In this document: piece by piece, positions 3,114 through 61,234 of the stretch | Position numbering within the stretch: the first letter of the stretch is position 1 | Layout of the letters: every line of letters starts with the position of its first letter | Source: Thermoleophilaceae bacterium | Lineage (GTDB): Bacteria > Actinomycetota > Thermoleophilia > Solirubrobacterales > Thermoleophilaceae | Length of the DNA stretch: 64,000 nucleotides | Direction: 5' to 3' | NCBI GenBank assembly: GCA_030448005.1 | Contig: JAUJNT010000002.1 | Coordinates: 389,729 to 453,728 of the forward strand | Program-made: the position numbers and the translations under genes | Notes under the pieces: generated by a model | Told to the model about the DNA's origin: nothing | The model's database searches: none | Seen by the model: only the letters and a program-made list of their open reading frames with translations

Positions 3114-4799
3114 CTACTGCGTGGCGCAGGGCATGCACGGGTCGAAGCTGCGCACCGCCCGCAGGACGTCGATGTAACTCTCGTCCCCCGGGGCGCTCAA
3201 GAGCGGCGTCCCGATCACGGCCTGCTCGATCGGTCCGGGCTGCCCGCTCCCGTCCCTCGGAGACGCGGAGAACGTGGAGTGGGTGACCACCTGGTAGCTC
3301 TCGATCTGCCCCTTGTCCATCGTCATGTGGTGGTTGACGAGGCCACGAGGCGAGCCGCCTAGGCCCATGCCCTCGCGTGAGTCCTTGGGGATCCGGAACT
3401 CAGTGGAGATGCGCCCTTCTCCCTTGCGGAGGAGGTCCAGGCACATCAGCACGAGGTCGTAGGAGATGAGAGCGGTGTGGACGAGGGAGTAGGCGTTGGC
3501 GCGGTTGCGCTCGAGGGCGCCCCAGGACTGCGGCACCCTCCACTCGAGCTCGGTGGCGGGCAGTGAGGCCTGCGGGATCGAGAACCTCATGCCGCTTCCC
3601 GTCGGCTCGCAGAACATGCGGTGCGGCGACTTGTTGGCCACGGAGGTGATCCATAGCCGCGCGTAGCCGCCGCCCTCCATGGCGTGGCGGTCCCAGCGGG
3701 CGGCCGTGCACCACGAGTACTTGGAGGAGCTGGGCGAGCCCGGAGCGGGGATCGTCTCCTTGTTCCAGGCATGGTTGGCCGAGAGCGAGGTATCGCCAGA
3801 GGCCCCGCCGCCCGACCAGTTCTCGTAGAAGGAATGGTCGACGAACTCCTCGGTGCCACCGTGCAGCCGCTGCAGGTCGGTGGTGACGAGCCTGCCGTCC
3901 ACGACCGCGCCGGGTGTGGCCCACCGCGCCTCACCCCAGCGGGAGGCGTTCTCGTAGAGGGCGTCGTATGCCCACGGGTCGTCGAAATGACCGTTGTCGA
4001 TCAGGTTGGGCGCTCGCGCACCGACCTCGCGGTAGCGGGGGTTGGCCTCATAGAAGAAGTCGATGATGTCGTCCCAGACGGCCGCGACCTTGCGGCCGTA
4101 GTCGAAGAACTTGACGACCCGCAGCATGTAGATGTTCATGTCCGAGGTGTCGATCAGCGAGCTGATCCCGCCCGGCACCGTGGTCTGGGGGTGCGGGTAC
4201 TTCCCGCCGATGATCACGTAGCCCTCGCGTGCGATGCGGGTCATGTAGAGCGCCTCTGCGTACAGCTCACCACTGACGCGCGTGAGCCCGGTCATGATGT
4301 CCGAGATCCGCTCGTAGCCGTGCGTGGCAACACCGCGGGCGAGTGTGCCCTCGGCGCGCGCCCAGAGCTCCGGGTTCGTGGCCTTCACGACCGGCTCGGA
4401 GTAGTCCGGGCCGGCGAGCACGAACAGATGGTGCGCATGGGAGTAGAGGCACTCCGTGGCAAGCAGCAGGTTGCGTGCTGCCACAGCCATCGGCGGGGCC
4501 TGGATGTCGAACGCCATCTCGATCGCGTTGGCGGCGGTTGCGGCGTGGGAGCTGCCGCACACCCCGCAGATACGGCTCGCGATAAAGATCGCGTCGCGCG
4601 CGTCTCGGCCCTGGAGGATGGTCTCGTAGCCGCGGAACAGAGTGCCGAGCACCGAGGCGTCCACTACCTCCCCCCGGTCGTGATCGATGGTCGTGTGCAG
4701 GGCGAGCGCCCCGGCCACCCGGACGACGGGATCGAAGTTGACCTGGCGGGTGCCGCTCAGGCCGCCACCTTCCCTGGGTGTCTCAAGCCTGTACGCCAT
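3114..4799 (-). CDS. [NiFe] hydrogenase large subunit
   Basis: 561 residues. The N-terminal nickel ligands are in SRICGVCGSSH (C78, C81) and the C-terminal pair in FDPCMPCATQ (C555, C558). The protein ends three residues after the last cysteine, with Gln as the final residue. Most group 1 large subunits have DPCxxCxxH followed by a 15-25 residue tail that a dedicated endopeptidase removes; both the His and the tail are absent. The start overlaps the small-subunit stop by one base (TGATG), so translation is coupled. The layout fits a cytosolic-facing actinobacterial uptake hydrogenase that oxidises H2 and passes electrons to the respiratory chain. The subgroup (1f-1h region) cannot be fixed by eye. 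No hyp or hup maturation genes are in the window. Confidence 0.92.
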   Translation of the reverse strand: MAYRLETPREGGGLSGTRQVNFDPVVRVAGALALHTTIDHDRGEVVDASVLGTLFRGYETILQGRDARDAIFIASRICGVCGSSHAATAANAIEMAFDIQAPPMAVAARNLLLATECLYSHAHHLFVLAGPDYSEPVVKATNPELWARAEGTLARGVATHGYERISDIMTGLTRVSGELYAEALYMTRIAREGYVIIGGKYPHPQTTVPGGISSLIDTSDMNIYMLRVVKFFDYGRKVAAVWDDIIDFFYEANPRYREVGARAPNLIDNGHFDDPWAYDALYENASRWGEARWATPGAVVDGRLVTTDLQRLHGGTEEFVDHSFYENWSGGGASGDTSLSANHAWNKETIPAPGSPSSSKYSWCTAARWDRHAMEGGGYARLWITSVANKSPHRMFCEPTGSGMRFSIPQASLPATELEWRVPQSWGALERNRANAYSLVHTALISYDLVLMCLDLLRKGEGRISTEFRIPKDSREGMGLGGSPRGLVNHHMTMDKGQIESYQVVTHSTFSASPRDGSGQPGPIEQAVIGTPLLSAPGDESYIDVLRAVRSFDPCMPCATQ

Positions 4800-39038: not shown

Positions 39039-39208
39039 GTGCTTTCTCGGGTCGAGAGCTGACGCCCAGTATTGACTGAGCGCCGCGCTGGCCCCGCATC
39101 CGGCGAGAGAAACGGGCGAGGTGCCGCAGGCGTCGGTCGCTCGCGCGACGAGGCGATGAGTCTTGCGCTGGGACGCCGTCGAGGAAGACCGCCTAGACGC
39201 CAGCTTTG

Positions 39209-39363
39209 CAGCCCTTCTGCGAAGCCGACGCCCGGATTCGAACGGGGGACCCCTTCAATACGAGAGACTTCGGGGGTGGTTCTGGGTCTTATGTAGTCCG
39301 GCGAGTGTGGCTAGGTTTTCCCTGCTATCAGCCGGTTCGGACAAATATAAGGGGACTCGAGAG
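39209..39363 (-). repeat. Direct repeat copy A with degenerate tRNA-Thr(CGT) 3' half
   Basis: About 155 bases, roughly 85% identical by eye to 52788-52943 in the same orientation. On the minus strand both copies read from an anticodon-loop-like CTCGTA(A/T)TGAAGGGGTC through a T-arm to CGTCGGCTTCG, the 3' half of a tRNA-Thr(CGT). The 5' half is absent and replaced by a shared about 85-base unrelated sequence. In this copy the T stem is degenerate. This is the structure expected of an attachment site left by a tRNA-integrating element. Confidence 0.7.
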
Positions 39364-51676: not shown

Positions 51677-52760
51677 CTAGGCGCTCACCCGGAGGCCGTC
51701 GCCCACTTCCCGCCCCAGCCGCTCGACACGGACCTCGGGATGCTCGAACAGAGTGCATTTCGTCCGCACGACCCGCAGGCAGAACGCCTCGACGTCGACC
51801 GCCGCGAAGGTCTCCGGCGCCGCCGAGCGGAGGTGATCGGCTCGCACCGAAGGCGACGGGACGATCGAGGACGCCGCTTGGCGCGACCGGGAGCGTCTTG
51901 GTGCCGCTGGCCGCGAGCGAGCCGAGCTTGTATGCCTTGCTCGGGTACTCGATGAACCACCTGGCGCCCATGATCCGCCTGCGGTTGGTCCGGCGGTCAG
52001 GACCGGCCTTCGCCTGCGGGCCGTGGGCTATCTCGACGTTCGGAGGCCACTGTGCCCGACCGTTCGTCCTGAGCTCATCCACGTAGAGCTCCGCGTCCAC
52101 GCCGACTTCCCAGACGCGCCGGTTCAGGTAGCTCGACAGACCCTTGATGTCGGTCTCGCTCTCGGTTCCGTCGCGGTTCGGATCGCCCAGGACGGTGTCG
52201 TCGGCCGGGCTCCCACCGAGCAGCACGATGACCGTCCCGTGGTCCTCGATCCAGTCGGGCTTGATGCTCTCCCAGTCGCAGCCGTGCTCCTCGTCGTCGT
52301 ATGGCGCGTATACGGCCTCGAGCGTGCTCTCGCCGGTGTCCGGATCCTCGGCATGCTCGACCTTGAGGCCAGACTCCCCACTGTCGGAGATGCGGTGAAT
52401 CCAGATCATCGACGGGTCCCCGTCGACCCACGACACGACCACCACGCCGTGCGTGTTTCAAGGCAATAGCGAGGTCTTTGCGCCGACGCCGAAGTTTTCG
52501 TGCTCGCCGCCGATGGGCTTTCCGCCACCGCCGTAGGTGTTGAAGAACTCCATCATCTGCTCGGCGTCCATGCCAGAACCGTTATCGGCGATCAGCCGAC
52601 GGTATACGCCCTTGTTCGCGACCGCCTGCCATTCAATCCCGAACTCGACCCGAGTGGCGCCTGCTTCGCGGGCGTTGATGTAGGTCTCCCGCGCCCACTG
52701 GAAGGGCCCGCTCTCGCGGTAGGTGCGGTTGACGAGGTGCTGCGTCCCGGCCGTCTCCAT
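51677..52760 (-). pseudogene. GHKL (HSP90-type) ATPase-domain protein with in-frame TGA and frameshift
   Basis: From METAGTQHLVNRTYRESGPFQWARETYINAREAGATRVEFG through RRLIADNGSGMDAEQMMEFF (N box-like helix and G1 box) and ENFGVGAKTSLLP the frame is a GHKL ATPase. The codon after LLP is TGA (52458-52460), and the same frame then continues NTHGVVVVSWVDGDPSMIWIHRISDSGE to RWFIEYPSKAYKLG. A TGG Trp would join them. Past about 51900 the frame shifts and a tail FEHPEVRVERLGREVGDGLRVSA runs to a stop at 51677-51679. The remainder of a larger protein (transducer domain, middle) may be lost. It begins 28 bases from repeat copy B. Confidence 0.65.
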
Positions 52761-52787
52761 CGGCAGGAACGCGCCATCGCGCGTGTG

Positions 52788-52943
52788 CAGGCCTTTTCTC
52801 GAAGCCGACGCGGGGACTCGAACCCCGGACCCCTTCATTACGAGGGACTCCGGGGGGTGTTCTGGGTCTTATGTGGTCCGGCGAGTGTGGCTGGTTTTCC
52901 CTGCTAATCAGCGGTTTGGACCGATATCAGGGGGACTCGAGAA
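52788..52943 (-). repeat. Direct repeat copy B with tRNA-Thr(CGT) 3' half
   Basis: Same unit as 39209-39363. On the minus strand this copy reads CTCGTAATGAAGGGGTC from the anticodon loop (CGT in CTCGTAA), a good T-arm (CGGGG TTCGAGT CCCCG) and CGTCGGCTTCG. The 5' half of the tRNA (acceptor 5' strand, D arm, 5' anticodon stem) is not present. Breakpoint in the anticodon loop is typical of tyrosine-recombinase attachment sites. A tyrosine recombinase gene lies 1.3 kb away at 54255. Confidence 0.75.
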
Positions 52944-53202
52944 GACCCGCTGGGACCTTGTTTGACGGCCGGATGTTGGCGAAAATGTTGGCGGATCGGC
53001 TTCTTCTTAACATTTCTCAGCCGCTGTTCTCTGCTCAGGCGCCGGCCGCCCCTAAGGAGCGGCCGTGCGGGAGGACGGGAAGCCTGGGGTGCATGCCGCT
53101 CGCTTAAGCGAAGACTCGTTTGGTCCCGATTCGGCTTGACGTGCGGGAGCGTCTCGCGCACAGAGAAGGAGCGCAATCAGCGGCCGCGCGGCGATTCCTT
53201 CG

Positions 53203-53252
53203 TGGCCAACTGAGTCACGCCGGCGCGCGTCGCCAGCGTGACCGCTCTCGCC
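53203..53252 (+). repeat. 50-bp inverted repeat, left arm
   Basis: Identical at 48 of 50 positions to the reverse complement of 54091-54140. Starts tggccaactgagtc and ends gaccgctctcgcc. The two arms face each other across 838 bases holding the GNAT gene. Confidence 0.92.
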
Positions 53253-53380
53253 AAGACCAGCTGCAGTGTGCGCCAGCCGACACCCGCTGCTCGTCCATTG
53301 CGAGCACGTCAACCGCATCCACCAAAACGCTCGCTCTCACGGAGGAGCGACACGTGGTCGATCGGGCTGTCGGACAGGCG

Positions 53381-53938
53381 CTACCCGCCTTCGGGGGTGA
53401 TCGGGCGCTCCATCAGCACACCCGAGGTGGTGACGCCGTCCGGCATTCGGATGTCGACGCGCTCCACCTCTCGGAATCCGAAGGCGCGGTAGAGCGGTTC
53501 GCCCGGGAGCGTTGCCATCAGCACGAGGTCTTGGAACCCCTCGCTGCGCGCGGCCCGCTCGCACGCCTCGAGAATCGCCCTACCGATGCCGCGCCGCCCA
53601 GTTCCCACGGACGAACATCGCCCGAACGCGAGCGGGCTCGCTCGCCGGGTCGAGCAATCGCTCGTCATCGTCTGCTGCGCGGGAGCCGTGTACAGCTTCG
53701 CCCGCCTGCTCCATCCCCCACACGCGACAAGCTCACCGTCGGCCTCGTGCACGAAGTAGGTGCCGTCCTCGATCAGCCGCATGTCGAGATGCGCGATGTG
53801 GATCGCGCCGCTGGCGACCTGGCGGTCGTCGTAGAAGCTGGGGAAGAGGTCGAGCGCGGACTGGCGCATCAGCTCCTGAATCCGCGGAGCGTCGGCGACG
53901 ACGGCGAGTCGCTGGGGCGGAGGGCCGAGCCGGCTCAT
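53381..53938 (-). CDS. GNAT-family N-acetyltransferase
   Basis: 185 residues. Begins with the alpha1 region (DAPRIQELMRQSALDLFPSFYDDRQVASGAIHIAHLDMRLI), beta2-3 strands (TYFVHEADGELVACGGWSRRAKLY), the acetyl-CoA loop RRGIGRAILEACERAARSEGFQDLVLMATLPGEPLYRAFGF and a short tail. Between about 53645 and 53595 the expected strand before the loop (DPASEPARVRAMFVRGNWA) is found in a neighbouring frame, so two compensating indels are likely. The GNAT product is a small-molecule acetyltransferase of unknown substrate. The gene sits inside the 50-bp inverted repeat. Confidence 0.8.
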   Translation of the reverse strand: MSRLGPPPQRLAVVADAPRIQELMRQSALDLFPSFYDDRQVASGAIHIAHLDMRLIEDGTYFVHEADGELVACGGWSRRAKLYTAPAQQTMTSDCSTRRASPLAFGRCSSVGTGRRGIGRAILEACERAARSEGFQDLVLMATLPGEPLYRAFGFREVERVDIRMPDGVTTSGVLMERPITPEGG

Positions 53939-54090
53939 CTACGCGAGTATGGGCGGAAGCGGCGACGATCACCAGTCGCCTCGTCGTACCGCTTGCGCGT
54001 GATGGAGGCGTCTCGAGCGAACCCCCACACACGCTCGGATCGGACGAGAAGCAAGCGTCTCGCTGAGGCTCGCACGGCGCCGCTGCTCTG

Positions 54091-54140
54091 GGCGAGAGCG
54101 GTCACGCTGGCGACGTGCGCCGGCGCGACTCAGTTGGCCA
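54091..54140 (-). repeat. 50-bp inverted repeat, right arm
   Basis: Inverse partner of 53203-53252 with two mismatches. It lies 114 bases upstream of the tyrosine recombinase start. Confidence 0.92.
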
Positions 54141-54254
54141 CCGACCGGTCGTGTGATCGTCCTCGGTGGCCTCTCCCCGCGCCCATGCAGGGCCGAGCGC
54201 CTGGTCTTGCGGTAGGGCAGTCGCCGTTCTGATCGTTCTACCAGGAGGTTCCAG

Positions 54255-54956
54255 TTGTCCACGCCTGAGGCAGTCGATGTGGCGGGGCGGCGACGGTCGC
54301 CGGCGACGTTCTCCGAGTTCCAGCGCGGCCGTGCTCCGAAGAACAAAGGACTTCGCTACCCGGCGGATCCACCGCGTGTAGAGGAGATCGTGGCGGTCAT
54401 GCGCCAGGCCGGCGAGGGGCTCGGCGGGCTGCGGCTTCGGGGGCTGATCGTCGTGCTGTGGCGGGCCGGCCTGCGGATCCAGGAGGCGCTCGATCTCGCC
54501 GAGGGCGATCTTGACCCCAGGCGCGGCGCGCTTCTCGTCCGCAATGGCAAGAACGGTCGCCGGCGCGAGGTCGGCATGGACGACTGGGGCTGGGAGCACC
54601 TGGCGCTGTGGAGCTCGCGGCGGCTCGAGCTCCCGCCCGGGCCGCTGTTCTGCATCATCGACGGCCCGACGTGCGGGCGAGCCTGGCCGCAGACCGGTGT
54701 GCGTGCGCAACTCCGTCGCTTCGCTGGCCAGGCTGGCGTTCGCCGGCGGTTCGCTCCTCACCAGCTCCGGCATGCACACGCGGTCGAAATGGCGCGCGAG
54801 GGGGTTCCGTTGAACGTGATCCAGCGCCAGCTCGGGCACAGCAACCTCGGCGTCACGTCCGTCTACCTCCAGGGCATCGACAGCGCCGAGGTCATCAACG
54901 CCATCCACGATCGGCGGCCGCCGATGATGCCTGCCACGGCGGGCTTGAAGCTTTGA
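54255..54956 (+). CDS. Tyrosine recombinase (XerC/D-like), catalytic domain only
   Basis: 233 residues from a TTG with CCAGGAGG 9 bases upstream. Catalytic residues are visible: Arg in RAGLRIQEALDL (R74), the KNGKNGRR strand Lys near 100, H169 and R172 in PHQLRHAHA, H195 in RQLGHSNLGVTSVY and the Tyr nucleophile Y204. An N-terminal SAM-like DNA-binding domain is nearly absent (about 35 residues before the core). This is the short form known from integrative elements and DNA inversion enzymes. It follows the inverted repeat; no excisionase is seen. Confidence 0.88.
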   Translation: MSTPEAVDVAGRRRSPATFSEFQRGRAPKNKGLRYPADPPRVEEIVAVMRQAGEGLGGLRLRGLIVVLWRAGLRIQEALDLAEGDLDPRRGALLVRNGKNGRRREVGMDDWGWEHLALWSSRRLELPPGPLFCIIDGPTCGRAWPQTGVRAQLRRFAGQAGVRRRFAPHQLRHAHAVEMAREGVPLNVIQRQLGHSNLGVTSVYLQGIDSAEVINAIHDRRPPMMPATAGLKL

Positions 54957-55363
54957 GTCGGCTGCCACGGACCGGCCAATAGCCGGTCCGTGGCCGAAGC
55001 GGTCGCGCCGACTGGCGCGTGCTCACTTCCCGCCGTGGCTGTTGCTGGATGGTTTCGAGCTAGGTGAGCCCGGTGTGATCCAACCTTCTTGGATCGATAC
55101 CAGCACCATCGCGAACTGCATTTGCCTCGCGGGCGGGCGATTTGCACAATCCCGTTACCGAGCCTCGGCGCCGATCGATGCTGCGCTAGATGCGTGGCCG
55201 AGGAGCGTGAGGTCGGACGCTGCCGCATGTCGAGGAGGCGGCACTCAGCAGGGCACAGCGCAATCAACGATCAAAAGCATTGACACTCGTCAGCACACCG
55301 GGGAGACTGCCACCTACGAAACGAGCGGTTCTCTAACTTAGCCACGCAAGGAGTCTTCTCTAG
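54957..55363. other. Gap after the recombinase
   Basis: A short palindrome after the recombinase stop (cacggaccggccaatagccggtccgtg, 54967-54993) is a 10-bp stem and may be its terminator: CACGGACCGG pairs with CCGGTCCGTG. The rest contains no supported gene. Confidence 0.55.
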
Positions 55364-55987: not shown

Positions 55988-57106
55988 GTGAGCGATACGC
56001 CAACAGTATCTTGGCGACTCATGAGTCGCACAGAGCAGTCACCCGAGCCCGTCTCGGTCAGCGACGAGTTCAGCGAGGTTTCAGGTCTCACCCCTATTAG
56101 AAGTGCCCGCGTGTTAGAAGCGAACCAGTGGCGACTCGGCTTTTGGACGGTTCTCGACGAACCAGCGGTGGAAACGGCCGTACTGTCGGTCGGTCAGCGG
56201 GCTGATGCAAACGTCGACGGACGCTGTTGGGAGGCCAAGATGGCCGGCCCGTTTAAGACGTTGGGCACTGATACGACCGATAGCGAGGCGGTCGCGTACC
56301 ACGATGGATTCATCTACATCTTCGGGTCTCACTTCGGGAAAAAGAGCCTGGATCCCGACAGAGCCTTCACGGCGCGGTTCGCAGAAGACGCCTGTGTCTC
56401 CGCCGGGAGTGCGGCCGCGCTCGAGATAAGGAAGGACGAGTTTCGCCTACATCGAGCGATCAACGACGCGCTCGCCTCCGCAGGGCTCACGCTGCTACCG
56501 ATCTCTCCGAGCGCTGCAGACCGCTTCATCGAAGCCACTCGTCGGCGAGGTGAGAGAATGGGTGAAGAGTGGGCAACCCGCATTCAGGCTCAAGACTGGC
56601 CCTTGAACGTCGAGGGGGCGGCGTTCCTGCCCAACGACAACCTGCTCCTCGGGTTGCGATCTCCGGTCACTGCAACCGGTCATCCGATCTTGGTGGAACT
56701 CGACATCTTTGTCTCGGCGTCCGAGTGGACTCAGAAGACACCGCGCGTCGAATCCATTTGGGTGCTAAACGACGTCGGGTCGTCCAAGCATCCTGTAGGT
56801 GTGCGCGACCTCGACGCAGGCGATGAAACAGAGCCGCTGTCCGTGATCGTCGGCAAGCTAGATGGCGAACTGCTTCGCAAGCGCGATCACGACCCCACAA
56901 TTCCATTCGCGCACTGGCGCACAACGCTCCCTGCCAGCCAAAGCGACGCGCGGACGCGGTGGGAAATGGTCCGGGACTTTGAGTCTGACATCGGGCGGGT
57001 CGAGGGAGTCGCCCGGCTTCCGGACGGTCGCTTCATCTACGCGAGCGACGAAAAGCGCTTGGTGCTGAGATACGACGCGGCCAACGCGTCAGCGGCGTCG
57101 ACGTAG
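55988..57106 (+). CDS. DUF3616-like beta-propeller protein
   Basis: 372 residues (an ATG at 56021 is an alternative start). Reads DSEAVAYHDGFIYIFGSHFGKKSLD, LNVEGAAFLPNDNLLLGLRSPVTATGHPILVELD and RVEGVARLPDGRFIYASDEKRLVLRYD. These NVEGxxxxxxxLLLGLRxP strands resemble DUF3616 proteins, predicted propellers of unknown function. No signal peptide. Single gene. Confidence 0.6.
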   Translation: MSDTPTVSWRLMSRTEQSPEPVSVSDEFSEVSGLTPIRSARVLEANQWRLGFWTVLDEPAVETAVLSVGQRADANVDGRCWEAKMAGPFKTLGTDTTDSEAVAYHDGFIYIFGSHFGKKSLDPDRAFTARFAEDACVSAGSAAALEIRKDEFRLHRAINDALASAGLTLLPISPSAADRFIEATRRRGERMGEEWATRIQAQDWPLNVEGAAFLPNDNLLLGLRSPVTATGHPILVELDIFVSASEWTQKTPRVESIWVLNDVGSSKHPVGVRDLDAGDETEPLSVIVGKLDGELLRKRDHDPTIPFAHWRTTLPASQSDARTRWEMVRDFESDIGRVEGVARLPDGRFIYASDEKRLVLRYDAANASAAST

Positions 57107-57178
57107 ACGACTGCTTCGGCCACCAAGGAGTCGCGCCGCCTCGCGCCGGCGACTGCTTGGGGAGCCGACGACCGGATA

Positions 57179-58878: not shown

Positions 58879-59523
58879 TCAGGCCGCGATCCTCGGCCAC
58901 GGCCGCACACCGGTCGCGGGGCGCAGCGAAACGAGGCGAAGCTCGAAGTCGCTATGCACAGGAAACGCCCCTATGACGCGCACCGAGAGGACTTCGGGCC
59001 CCCGCTCTGGCTGATTACCGCGCGCGCCGATTACGAGGTCCTCGCCGACGGTAGAGCCGTAGTTCGGACCGCGGCGGGGATGGAGTCGACGCCCCCAGGC
59101 TTCAATGGGATCCAGCTCACCGGAGGTGAAGAGATCAGCGCACTCGCTCGCCCCCCACTCGGTCAGCGAGGCGCCGGTCGCGATGTAGAGATCGTCGTAC
59201 CCGTGCTCTGAGCCCAGCAGTGCCAGCTTGACGGCGTCCCAGACGCTCTCGAAGAGCTTCCCCGGCAGCGCGTACGACCACTTGAGCTCCATCAGCAGCC
59301 GTGGCTCGGCGGCGACGATGTCGACGGGTCCAAGGCCACGGAAGTGCTGCGAGTGAAGGGTTCGCGAGACCGGCCGCTTGCCGGTGTACTCCTCGAACAC
59401 ATCCTTCATGAACGGATCGAGGTGACGGCGCTCGCGCAACTCGGCGCCCGGCAGCTCGGTCATCGCCATGCGCTCAGCGACGCGCGCGCTTATCTCAGGG
59501 ACGAGGTTCTCAGTTTCGGTCAT
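58879..59523 (-). CDS. PD-(D/E)XK-like nuclease-fold protein, second gene of a coupled pair
   Basis: 214 residues. The central part HSQHFRGLGPVDIVAAEPRLLMELKWSYALPGKLFESVWDAVKLALLGSEHGYDDLYIATGAS has the core arrangement D68 ... E79-x-K81 (GPVDIV, strand, MELKW) of PD-(D/E)XK nucleases, followed by a helix and strand as in that fold. Upstream is a helical region (ERRHLDPFMKDVFEEYTG). The start overlaps the stop of the gene at 59520-60707 by 4 bases (ATGA). No named family is recognised; nuclease activity is inferred from three residues and their spacing. Confidence 0.65.
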   Translation of the reverse strand: MTETENLVPEISARVAERMAMTELPGAELRERRHLDPFMKDVFEEYTGKRPVSRTLHSQHFRGLGPVDIVAAEPRLLMELKWSYALPGKLFESVWDAVKLALLGSEHGYDDLYIATGASLTEWGASECADLFTSGELDPIEAWGRRLHPRRGPNYGSTVGEDLVIGARGNQPERGPEVLSVRVIGAFPVHSDFELRLVSLRPATGVRPWPRIAA

Positions 59524-60707
59524 GCGCGATGTCGCCGGTCTTCGCCACCGAGGCGGTGCTTCTCGCGCGCACACGCTCGGGTCTCGTCCTCGAGCTCCAT
59601 CAGGGGCAGCAGCTGCTGCCACGAGATCGAGGCGAACCGGAAGCGCTGCGGATCGGCGTTGGCCGCGAAGGCCTCGGCGAGAATCTTCGGCCAGCCGGGC
59701 CAAGCGCCAGAGCCGCCGAAGTACGGGTTCTGCTCGTCGTAGACCAAGCCGAAGACGGCTAGCTGGCCAGGCTTGGCCAGAGCACGGGCGGCGGCAGCGT
59801 TGCGGACCGCCTGGTAGGGAAGACTGATCGGACACGGCCCCGGCGGCTCACGCGCCGGCAGGCCAAGTAGATCGGCTGCCGCCGCCCAGTAAGCCTCGCG
59901 GCCTTCGATGCGAGTCGCGCATCGGCCCTTAAGCGGATTGCCTCCATCTGCGCCGCAGGAGCAGGCCCCAAGCCCCTGCTCGGCGCGCTTGATCTCGATG
60001 CAGATCAGCGCGCTCGGGTCGTCGACGAGGACGTCGACGGCGGTCTGGCGTGGCTGCTCGCCAAGTACGTCGGCCGTCAGCGTCTGCTCGAAGTCGATCT
60101 GTGGCGAGTGGTCGCCTGCAGGCGGCAACGGCGAGAGCGCGTCCCAGAGCCAGGAGAGCGTCGGGTCGAGACGGGCCGACTGCCCGAGGAGGCCGACGGC
60201 GAGCGTTTGACTCGACTTGCCAGAGAGGTGCCACCGGTGCCACTCGCCCCCCGCAACGAGATCGCCCAGAGCCCCCCAGCTCGGCGGCAGCGCCGCGGCG
60301 AGATCCCGGGCTGAGTGCTCCTGCTCGCCACGGAGATCATCGTGCTCGCCGAAGTAGCGCTTGTAGTGCTCGGTCAGATCCTTGTCATACGCACGCCACT
60401 GACGCGCGCACTCGGCGTCGACCTCGACGCGCGACCAGCCGGCCAGGGTCCTCGAGGGCTCCGGCAACCGGAGCTCCTTGCGGATAGTGGCGACCGCCTT
60501 CTCGTGCAACTCGGCAGCCTCCTCCGCGGAGACGCCGAGCGCGTGCGCCGCCTCATCGAGGGACAGGCCCTCGTACCAGAGCAGGGTCGCCACCAGCTTC
60601 TGGGCCTCAGGCAGGGCGCCAATCATCTGCGCCAGCTGCTCCCTGTCCATACCGTCAAACCCGTCCACCGCCGTCTGCCTCCAAGTCAAGGTCGTCAGGC
60701 CGACCAT
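59520..60707 (-). CDS. Sigma region 4-like HTH fused to PD-(D/E)XK-like nuclease domain
   Basis: 395 residues (an ATG at 60650 would remove 19). Residues about 29-80, IGALPEAQKLVATLLWYEGLSLDEAAHALGVSAEEAAELHEKAVATIRKEL, match sigma region 4.2 of the FliA/SigF type (LP..x..v..l.yyEGlsl.EiA..LGvs...v..lh.kAv..lR). The middle is helical. From about 205, IDFEQTLTADVLGEQPRQTAVDVLVDD leads to ALICIEIKRAEQGLGACSCG: D225, E238, K240, a PD-(D/E)XK-like core. A Cys cluster (C249, C251, C263) and YW/QAVRNAAAARAL follow. The fusion is unusual. Coupled by ATGA to the second nuclease-like gene. Confidence 0.65.
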   Translation of the reverse strand: MVGLTTLTWRQTAVDGFDGMDREQLAQMIGALPEAQKLVATLLWYEGLSLDEAAHALGVSAEEAAELHEKAVATIRKELRLPEPSRTLAGWSRVEVDAECARQWRAYDKDLTEHYKRYFGEHDDLRGEQEHSARDLAAALPPSWGALGDLVAGGEWHRWHLSGKSSQTLAVGLLGQSARLDPTLSWLWDALSPLPPAGDHSPQIDFEQTLTADVLGEQPRQTAVDVLVDDPSALICIEIKRAEQGLGACSCGADGGNPLKGRCATRIEGREAYWAAAADLLGLPAREPPGPCPISLPYQAVRNAAAARALAKPGQLAVFGLVYDEQNPYFGGSGAWPGWPKILAEAFAANADPQRFRFASISWQQLLPLMELEDETRACAREKHRLGGEDRRHRA

Positions 60708-61234
60708 ATCTCTGACGAAGCGGATGCCTGCCGTGGCCGGCGCCTCGGGTACATCAGCACCCCAGCAGTCTTGCCGGCAAGCTCGGGCAGCTGGAGCGAA
60801 GGAGCCAACCGTCGTTCAAGTTCGGGTGAGCATCGTGGCCTTCACTGATGAAGGGGCCGCCACGCGCAGGCTCAACCAGCCGGCGCAGAGCAGCGCCGCG
60901 AGCGCCTGCTCAGGGGCATCCCCACGCGGCGGGGCCATGACCGCGACGAGTACCCGGCCGCTGTAGGGCGAGGGCGGCCGATCGGCAGATCGCGGGCGCT
61001 CGTGCGCGGGACGAACCCGCGCGGTTAGAAGGCCGACGTGATCTACGCCCGAGCGGCGAGAACCGCTCGCACGGATTTATGGCGACGAAGGCGATGAACA
61101 GCCTGCAAATTACGTCCCCGGCTTGCTGATGACGTTGGCCGAAGCAAGAGCGAGCGGGGCGGTCCTCGGACGATCCCTTCGCGCGCCGAATCCGATAAGG
61201 CGCTGCGCCCGAGCCGGCACCACTGCTTTGTGGC
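60708..61234. other. Gap upstream of the coupled pair
   Basis: About 530 bases with no supported gene; the promoter of the pair at 58879-60707 should be at the left edge. Confidence 0.4.

Follow-up and report, generated by a model that had tools for sequence, protein, structure and literature searches.

The 64-kb window analysed here, 64,000 nucleotides of a Thermoleophilaceae genome, contains an inverted repeat that encloses a GNAT acetyltransferase gene and lies beside the gene of a small tyrosine recombinase. An original prediction, made from the letters of the window, had taken this arrangement for a possible invertible segment. The elements at the locus are listed below in window coordinates, with the arms of the repeat treated as putative recombination sites (S) of plus or minus polarity.

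53202..53305, + strand: left arm, putative recombination site S+ (repeat search, blastn and the site model R1 described below)
53381..53938, − strand: open reading frame (ORF) of the cargo GNAT acetyltransferase (Acetyltransf_1, E 8.6e-07; residues 115-155 alone match)
54033..54141, − strand: right arm, putative recombination site S− (repeat search, blastn and R1)
54255..54956, + strand: core-only tyrosine recombinase of 233 amino acids (PF00589, E 1.7e-24)

The inverted repeat, its cargo gene and the recombinase

A repeat search of the window paired 53202-53272 with 54071-54141 without gaps (71 nt, 89% identity), and blastn aligned 53202-53305 with 54033-54141 over 109 columns (79.8% identity, E 3.6e-20), which gives arms of about 105 bp whose outer 50 bp are 96% identical. 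The position and identity of the predicted 50-bp arms were correct, whereas their length was underestimated by about half. The window contained no second inverted repeat of equal strength, and none of 75 bits or more was present in the control DNA, which comprised 780 kb of the own and related genomes. The arm sequence occurs in two copies in the 3.23-Mb genome, both at the GNAT locus, which rules out a genome-wide repeat. A DNA-similarity search for the arms in 231 relatives returned chance-level matches only; a match in G020:C47 was likewise judged to be chance.

The arms have a sharp common outer end, GTGGCC, and their identity declines inward, as in terminal inverted repeats. The GNAT segment might therefore be a non-autonomous transposon remnant, a mobile insertion cassette whose transposase is absent and to which the recombinase is a bystander; transposon ends had also been offered as an alternative in the original prediction. 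However, the flanks, ...GATTCCTTC (ending ...TTC) and CGACCGGTC... (CGA...), share no direct repeat, so there is no target-site duplication, and neither the own genome nor the order contains a transposase or another element bearing such ends. Moreover, sites related to the arms flank the recombinase itself and also occur singly. We consider a transposon remnant improbable.

The GNAT gene lies between the arms and is read leftward, as predicted, but its ORF is not intact. Direct reading showed that two compensating indels shift about 34 codons of the middle part (LYT...RRGIG) out of frame, and the alternative frame of this part reads GSRAADDDERLLDPASEPARVRAMFVRGNW, the expected GNAT core. Because these codons are out of frame, the Pfam match is confined to the C-terminal half of the protein. 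The frameshifted ORF is probably a pseudogene or the product of a sequence error.

The recombinase carries all catalytic residues in the family alignment (R74, K99, H169, R172, H195 and Y204), and its AlphaFold2 (AF2) model comprises a confident core domain without a folded N-terminal domain. Its coordinates, Pfam domain and lack of a folded N-terminal domain agree with the catalytic-core-only enzyme predicted to the right of the repeat. The best Foldseek matches of the model were XerA and XerH, and sequence and fold comparison together placed the enzyme closest to XerA/XerC-like recombinases. Among solved structures, the single-recombinase systems of XerA and XerH (PDB 5hxy, 4a8e, 5jjv) come closest to the catalytic domain in sequence and fold; in contrast to them, the recombinase described here has no folded N-terminal domain, is multicopy and looks mobile.

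A site family adjoining the recombinase

To follow the repeat beyond this window, 82 recombinase loci were scanned for inverted repeats, with wider windows in later rounds. The scan yielded this window and locus L088, and the wider windows added L118, L095, L106 and a few others, so that inverted repeats of at least 75 bits were present at several recombinase loci as against none in the 780 kb of control DNA. At L088, 118-bp arms (88% identical) enclose a different GNAT gene, with the recombinase 229 bp downstream of the arm end; the design of our window thus recurs there in different sequences. At L118, 106-bp arms (86% identical) enclose two RibD_C/DHFR-family genes. Two of the target cases have other explanations: the inverted repeat of L104 is an insertion sequence with its transposase, and that of L037/L080 lies in a region of repeat genes and encloses the recombinase itself. 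A 120-nt repeated element in L118 proved to belong to a methyltransferase gene. As a separate observation, L106 has 416-nt inverted arms (1101-1495 and 4344-4746, 72%) with three ORFs between them beside a recombinase copy, and these arms contain several tandem copies of site-like motifs.

Aligned from outer to inner end, the arms of the window, L118 and L095 have a common skeleton. A site profile built from these arms and then iterated on the target loci gave 72 matches at E<0.1 in non-redundant recombinase-flanking DNA (776 kb) and 1 in the control DNA (780 kb). Because the iterated profile had been trained on its targets, we repeated the training on one half of the loci and scored the other half, with controls more than twice as large. 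At E<1, the held-out splits gave target-to-control matches of 17:0, 1:0, 16:0 and 9:1, and shuffled DNA gave 0 or 1. We regard this unannotated site family as well supported, as is its association with the recombinase, and the connection between repeat and recombinase suspected in the original prediction is borne out by a site family that adjoins this recombinase family in many genomes.

An alignment of 39 sites defined a core of about 85 nt, composed of two tandem dyads of about 28 bp with four half-sites, ACGCCYGCTT. Dyad B reads roughly ACGCCYGCTT-spacer-AAGCGGGCGY and dyad A ACGCCTGC-nnnTCGTCCnnn-GCGGGCGT, in which an asymmetric, nearly invariant TCGTCC marks the polarity of the site. The left arm runs from the GTGGCC outer end through dyad B to dyad A, with TCGTCC facing the gene. 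Such pairs of inverted half-sites, separated by a short spacer, are the substrate type of tyrosine recombinases of this class. Covariation was no higher than in column shuffles, either within dyads (56/500) or across them (150/500); since there is none beyond column composition, the sequence rather than a fold appears to be conserved. The conserved half-site sequence fits binding as double-stranded DNA. Folding of the attC type was rejected, as fold z-scores were mixed and covariation was absent.

For searches beyond the loci we used a sequence-only site model, R1. It matched the right arm at 54029-54106 with 34.7 bits; this copy was included in the training set. The right arm is the top-scoring site of its own genome. 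The left arm, which was outside the training set, was matched as a held-out site at 53240-53309 (12.6 bits, E 0.012 in 64 kb).

Orientation of the sites and cargo of the arrays

Polarity was then counted from TCGTCC for sites within 400 bp of a recombinase. Upstream sites were of minus polarity in 14/16 cases and downstream sites of plus polarity in 10/13, amounting to 24/29 (p 5e-4), and 18/29 successive site pairs were of the plus-minus kind. These counts lead to an arrangement S+ cargo S− recombinase S+ cargo S−. In the clear array at L107, a Mutator transposase and a 320-amino-acid ORF precede the recombinase and a 159-amino-acid ORF; at L074, IS110, a 109-amino-acid ORF and RibD_C are followed by the recombinase, a 210-amino-acid ORF and an amidase; and L125 is another clear array, with NucS_C-like cargo. 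Further cargo includes GCS2 (L144), an FAD oxidoreductase (L072), DUF4279 (L119) and DUF1326 with PpoB2 (L136). The cargo is accordingly diverse across loci, with RibD_C, amidase, transposases and GNAT among its types.

The window contains three weaker candidate sites:

54985..55045, + strand: weak third site S+, probably decayed (R1 9.0 bits, E 0.16)
57085..57164, − strand: possible site S−, weak (profile E 0.018; no R1 match at E<=0.5)
61136..61228, + strand: possible site S+, weak (profile E 0.043; R1 12.5 bits, E 0.013 at 61176-61226)

The first of these lies directly downstream of the recombinase in the orientation that the rule predicts and resembles the right arm over 28 nt (79%, short repeat I2). 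A stronger site candidate lies just past the window (G000:C1:454156-454212).

These arrays bear directly on the invertible switch of the FimB/FimE or Mpi/Tsr type that the original prediction had proposed, in which the recombinase would flip the 940-bp GNAT segment and thereby alter expression. Like fimS of FimB/FimE and the Mpi/Tsr systems, the locus combines a core-only or small tyrosine recombinase with an adjacent inverted repeat, and the cargo varies in orientation, the GNAT gene being read leftward here and rightward in L088. Those systems, however, flip a promoter between short repeats, whereas composite sites of about 105 nt here enclose whole genes and are organized in arrays in which the recombinase and further genes are likewise flanked. 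For this reason a lone switch of this kind is unlikely; the cargo also varies by locus, the GNAT gene is disturbed, and neither a second orientation nor an extra copy of the segment was found in the own genome and the 231 relatives. The evidence lies nearest to another alternative of the original prediction, namely two attachment-site copies in opposite orientation.

Sites and recombinases were then followed across the order, using R1 on 232 genomes. The recombinase is present in 65 genomes and R1 matches in 69; sites occur in 37/65 recombinase-positive and 32/167 recombinase-negative genomes (odds ratio 5.6, p 5e-8). Strong sites of the own genome are located at the GNAT locus and close to other recombinase copies, and several genomes of two genera (g46/g47 and others, L336-L355) carry at least 15-19 sites each, some without a close recombinase. 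The latter genomes, together with the two hairpin-capable dyads of each site, would suit interspersed palindromic repeats (REP/BIME-like) or terminators that have gathered in mobile islands. However, the sites are almost missing from 780 kb of ordinary chromosome and show a strong, oriented concentration around the recombinase, and the covariation typical of a structure-only element is absent. We regard this explanation as having a small chance of being correct.

The own genome contains more recombinase copies, three of them complete or nearly complete and others broken. A species-wide genome collection contributed 79 recombinase loci, labelled nearly all as Solirubrobacterales, Solirubrobacter, Conexibacter or Thermoleophilaceae, and phage and plasmid collections contained distant relatives only, with less than 35% identity among the matches listed. 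The recombinase family is multicopy, partly decayed and of the Solirubrobacterales. The recombinase of G007 has a similar contig coordinate, but this was a coincidence and not synteny, as the flanks are not shared; a family of beta-propeller-like repeat genes makes up the G007 locus. This locus (L037, G007:C1:434000-454000) has several long genes built of 180-bp (60-amino-acid) repeats, with repeats of about 58 bp beside them in both orientations and an inverted repeat of about 300 bp enclosing the recombinase, and may be a locus of repeat-protein shuffling.

A further element was observed directly 5' of the ribosome-binding site of the recombinase:

54211..54242, + strand: weak form of the palindrome GGTAGAGCAG...CTGTTCTACC (k-mer enrichment and alignment of the upstream regions of homologues)

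The palindrome, GGTAGAGCAG-n6-9-CTGTTCTACC, is conserved upstream of homologues (for example L118, L110 and L115) at about −45 to −15. It is unlike the S sites and could be an autoregulatory element or a second recombination site.

In the surroundings of the GNAT module, a GHKL/HSP90-like ATPase gene (51.7-52.4 kb on the minus strand; 52458-52838) is apparently split by a frameshift near 52458, which together with the frameshifts of the GNAT gene suggests decay or indel errors of the assembly. A 159-bp direct repeat (85%; 52786-52942 and 39207-39362) contains 3' fragments of tRNA-Thr(CGT), of which an intact copy lies at about 316.4 kb of G000:C1; this repeat looks like the attachment-site scars of an integrated island adjoining the GNAT module. 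At 59520-60707 on the minus strand, a 395-amino-acid protein fuses sigma-70 region 4 to a REase-ARP-like domain (Pfam) and is possibly a defence gene of the island.

A proposed module system and its relation to known systems

On balance, we favour the view that the GNAT segment is one module of a chromosomal gene-shuffling system that resembles dif modules and has its own dedicated recombinase. A module would consist of one or a few cargo genes between two inversely oriented composite S sites, with the Xer-like core-only recombinase placed between modules. This recombinase probably acts on the S sites; it may bind the half-sites as double-stranded DNA and exchange strands in the spacer of one of the dyads. 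Pairing of S+ with S− would invert a module, whereas pairing of like-oriented sites, on one or two molecules, would excise or fuse module pairs, so that cargo could be shuffled and relocated. The GNAT unit is probably one such module in decay. The module and its flanking sites in the window look old, and current flipping of the segment is doubtful because the GNAT gene is disturbed, the spacers of dyad A differ between the arms (CTCGTCCATT and CTCGTCCGAT) and the S+ site downstream of the recombinase is degraded.

Several observations weigh against a dedicated module system. No recombination product was observed. The left arm scored low with R1 (12.6 bits), and one held-out split recovered just 1 match, which means that detection depends on which sites enter the training. 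The homology limits between recombinase modules vary relative to the sites and have no fixed end, so that the idea of a perfect mobile unit, bounded at constant positions on either side of the recombinase, was rejected. Many recombinase copies, some of them from isolates, contain frameshifts, so that much of the system is decayed, and most of the genomes are metagenome-assembled. The main caution comes from sites that lack a nearby enzyme: 12 site-bearing genomes that were checked have distant tyrosine recombinases only and no close recombinase, and the orientation rule is weak in such arrays (plus-minus 14, plus-plus 13, minus-minus 10, minus-plus 6). These sites may either persist after loss of the enzyme or be served by another one.

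The nearest likeness to the proposed system is offered by the dif modules of Acinetobacter, in which inversely oriented sites surround each module and two polarities alternate (PMC13141974). Single modules invert and adjacent pairs can be lost there, while the movement of single modules has been ascribed to cointegrate formation and resolution; one direct test detected no module excision (PMC11705084). The likeness to dif/pdif modules (PMC13141974, PMC11705084, PMC12907356) comprises small modules between inverse tyrosine-recombinase sites and a geometry from which it follows that single modules can invert and that pairs can be lost. Cargo between two inverse sites was found at our window, L088, L118 and L095. 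The alternation of C and D orientations in dif modules has a possible counterpart in the orientation rule, which holds for 24/29 sites beside the recombinase and is weak in arrays without one. The dif/pdif modules hold assorted accessory genes and insertion sequences in arrays on plasmids and chromosomes, and the cargo described here is likewise diverse. They use one short XerC/XerD site and the host XerC/XerD, whereas the site here, unrelated in sequence, has a two-dyad core of about 85 nt, and a dedicated core-only recombinase within the chromosomal arrays of Solirubrobacterales is the candidate enzyme. Because site and enzyme differ, the system is not a member of the dif group.

Integrons share with these loci a tyrosine recombinase, mostly single-gene cargo of the cassette type and palindromic sites with four half-sites, and the arrays without a recombinase recall in their layout the integrase-less integron clusters (CALINs). 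Integron attC sites are conserved as folded hairpins rather than in sequence, and cassettes are joined in direct orientation. The sites described here, in contrast, are inverted around both cargo and recombinase near the enzyme, and their half-sites are conserved in sequence without covariation. Moreover, the recombinase reached 51 bits with TIGR02249 (residues 149-207 only) against a cut-off of 265, matched integron-integrase models at residues 146-208 only and has no folded N-terminal domain in its AF2 model. Since the integrase features tested are lacking, the sites are inverted and structure is not conserved, a true integron, or a cassette array descended from one (IntI with attC), is very unlikely.

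In summary, we tentatively propose, at somewhat less than even confidence, a hitherto undescribed chromosomal cassette system of the Solirubrobacterales, in which dedicated core-only recombinases would shuffle modules between inversely oriented four-half-site ends, and which would have evolved separately from integrons and from the Xer-driven dif modules and may have left recombinase-less arrays in several genera. To our knowledge, systems that combine a tyrosine recombinase with the capture of movable single-gene units are essentially integrons and the dif modules of Acinetobacter. A search of open-access papers found no description of a comparable system for either Solirubrobacterales or Thermoleophilia. 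If the proposal is correct, this would be a third such system, found in Actinobacteria and based on a single-domain recombinase and inverted sites, which would imply multiple origins. It would also provide a defined substrate for the question of how inversely oriented modules relocate, which is open for dif modules (PMC13141974). It would further offer a means of finding unannotated arrays of accessory genes in soil bacteria, of which this order is a little-studied group.
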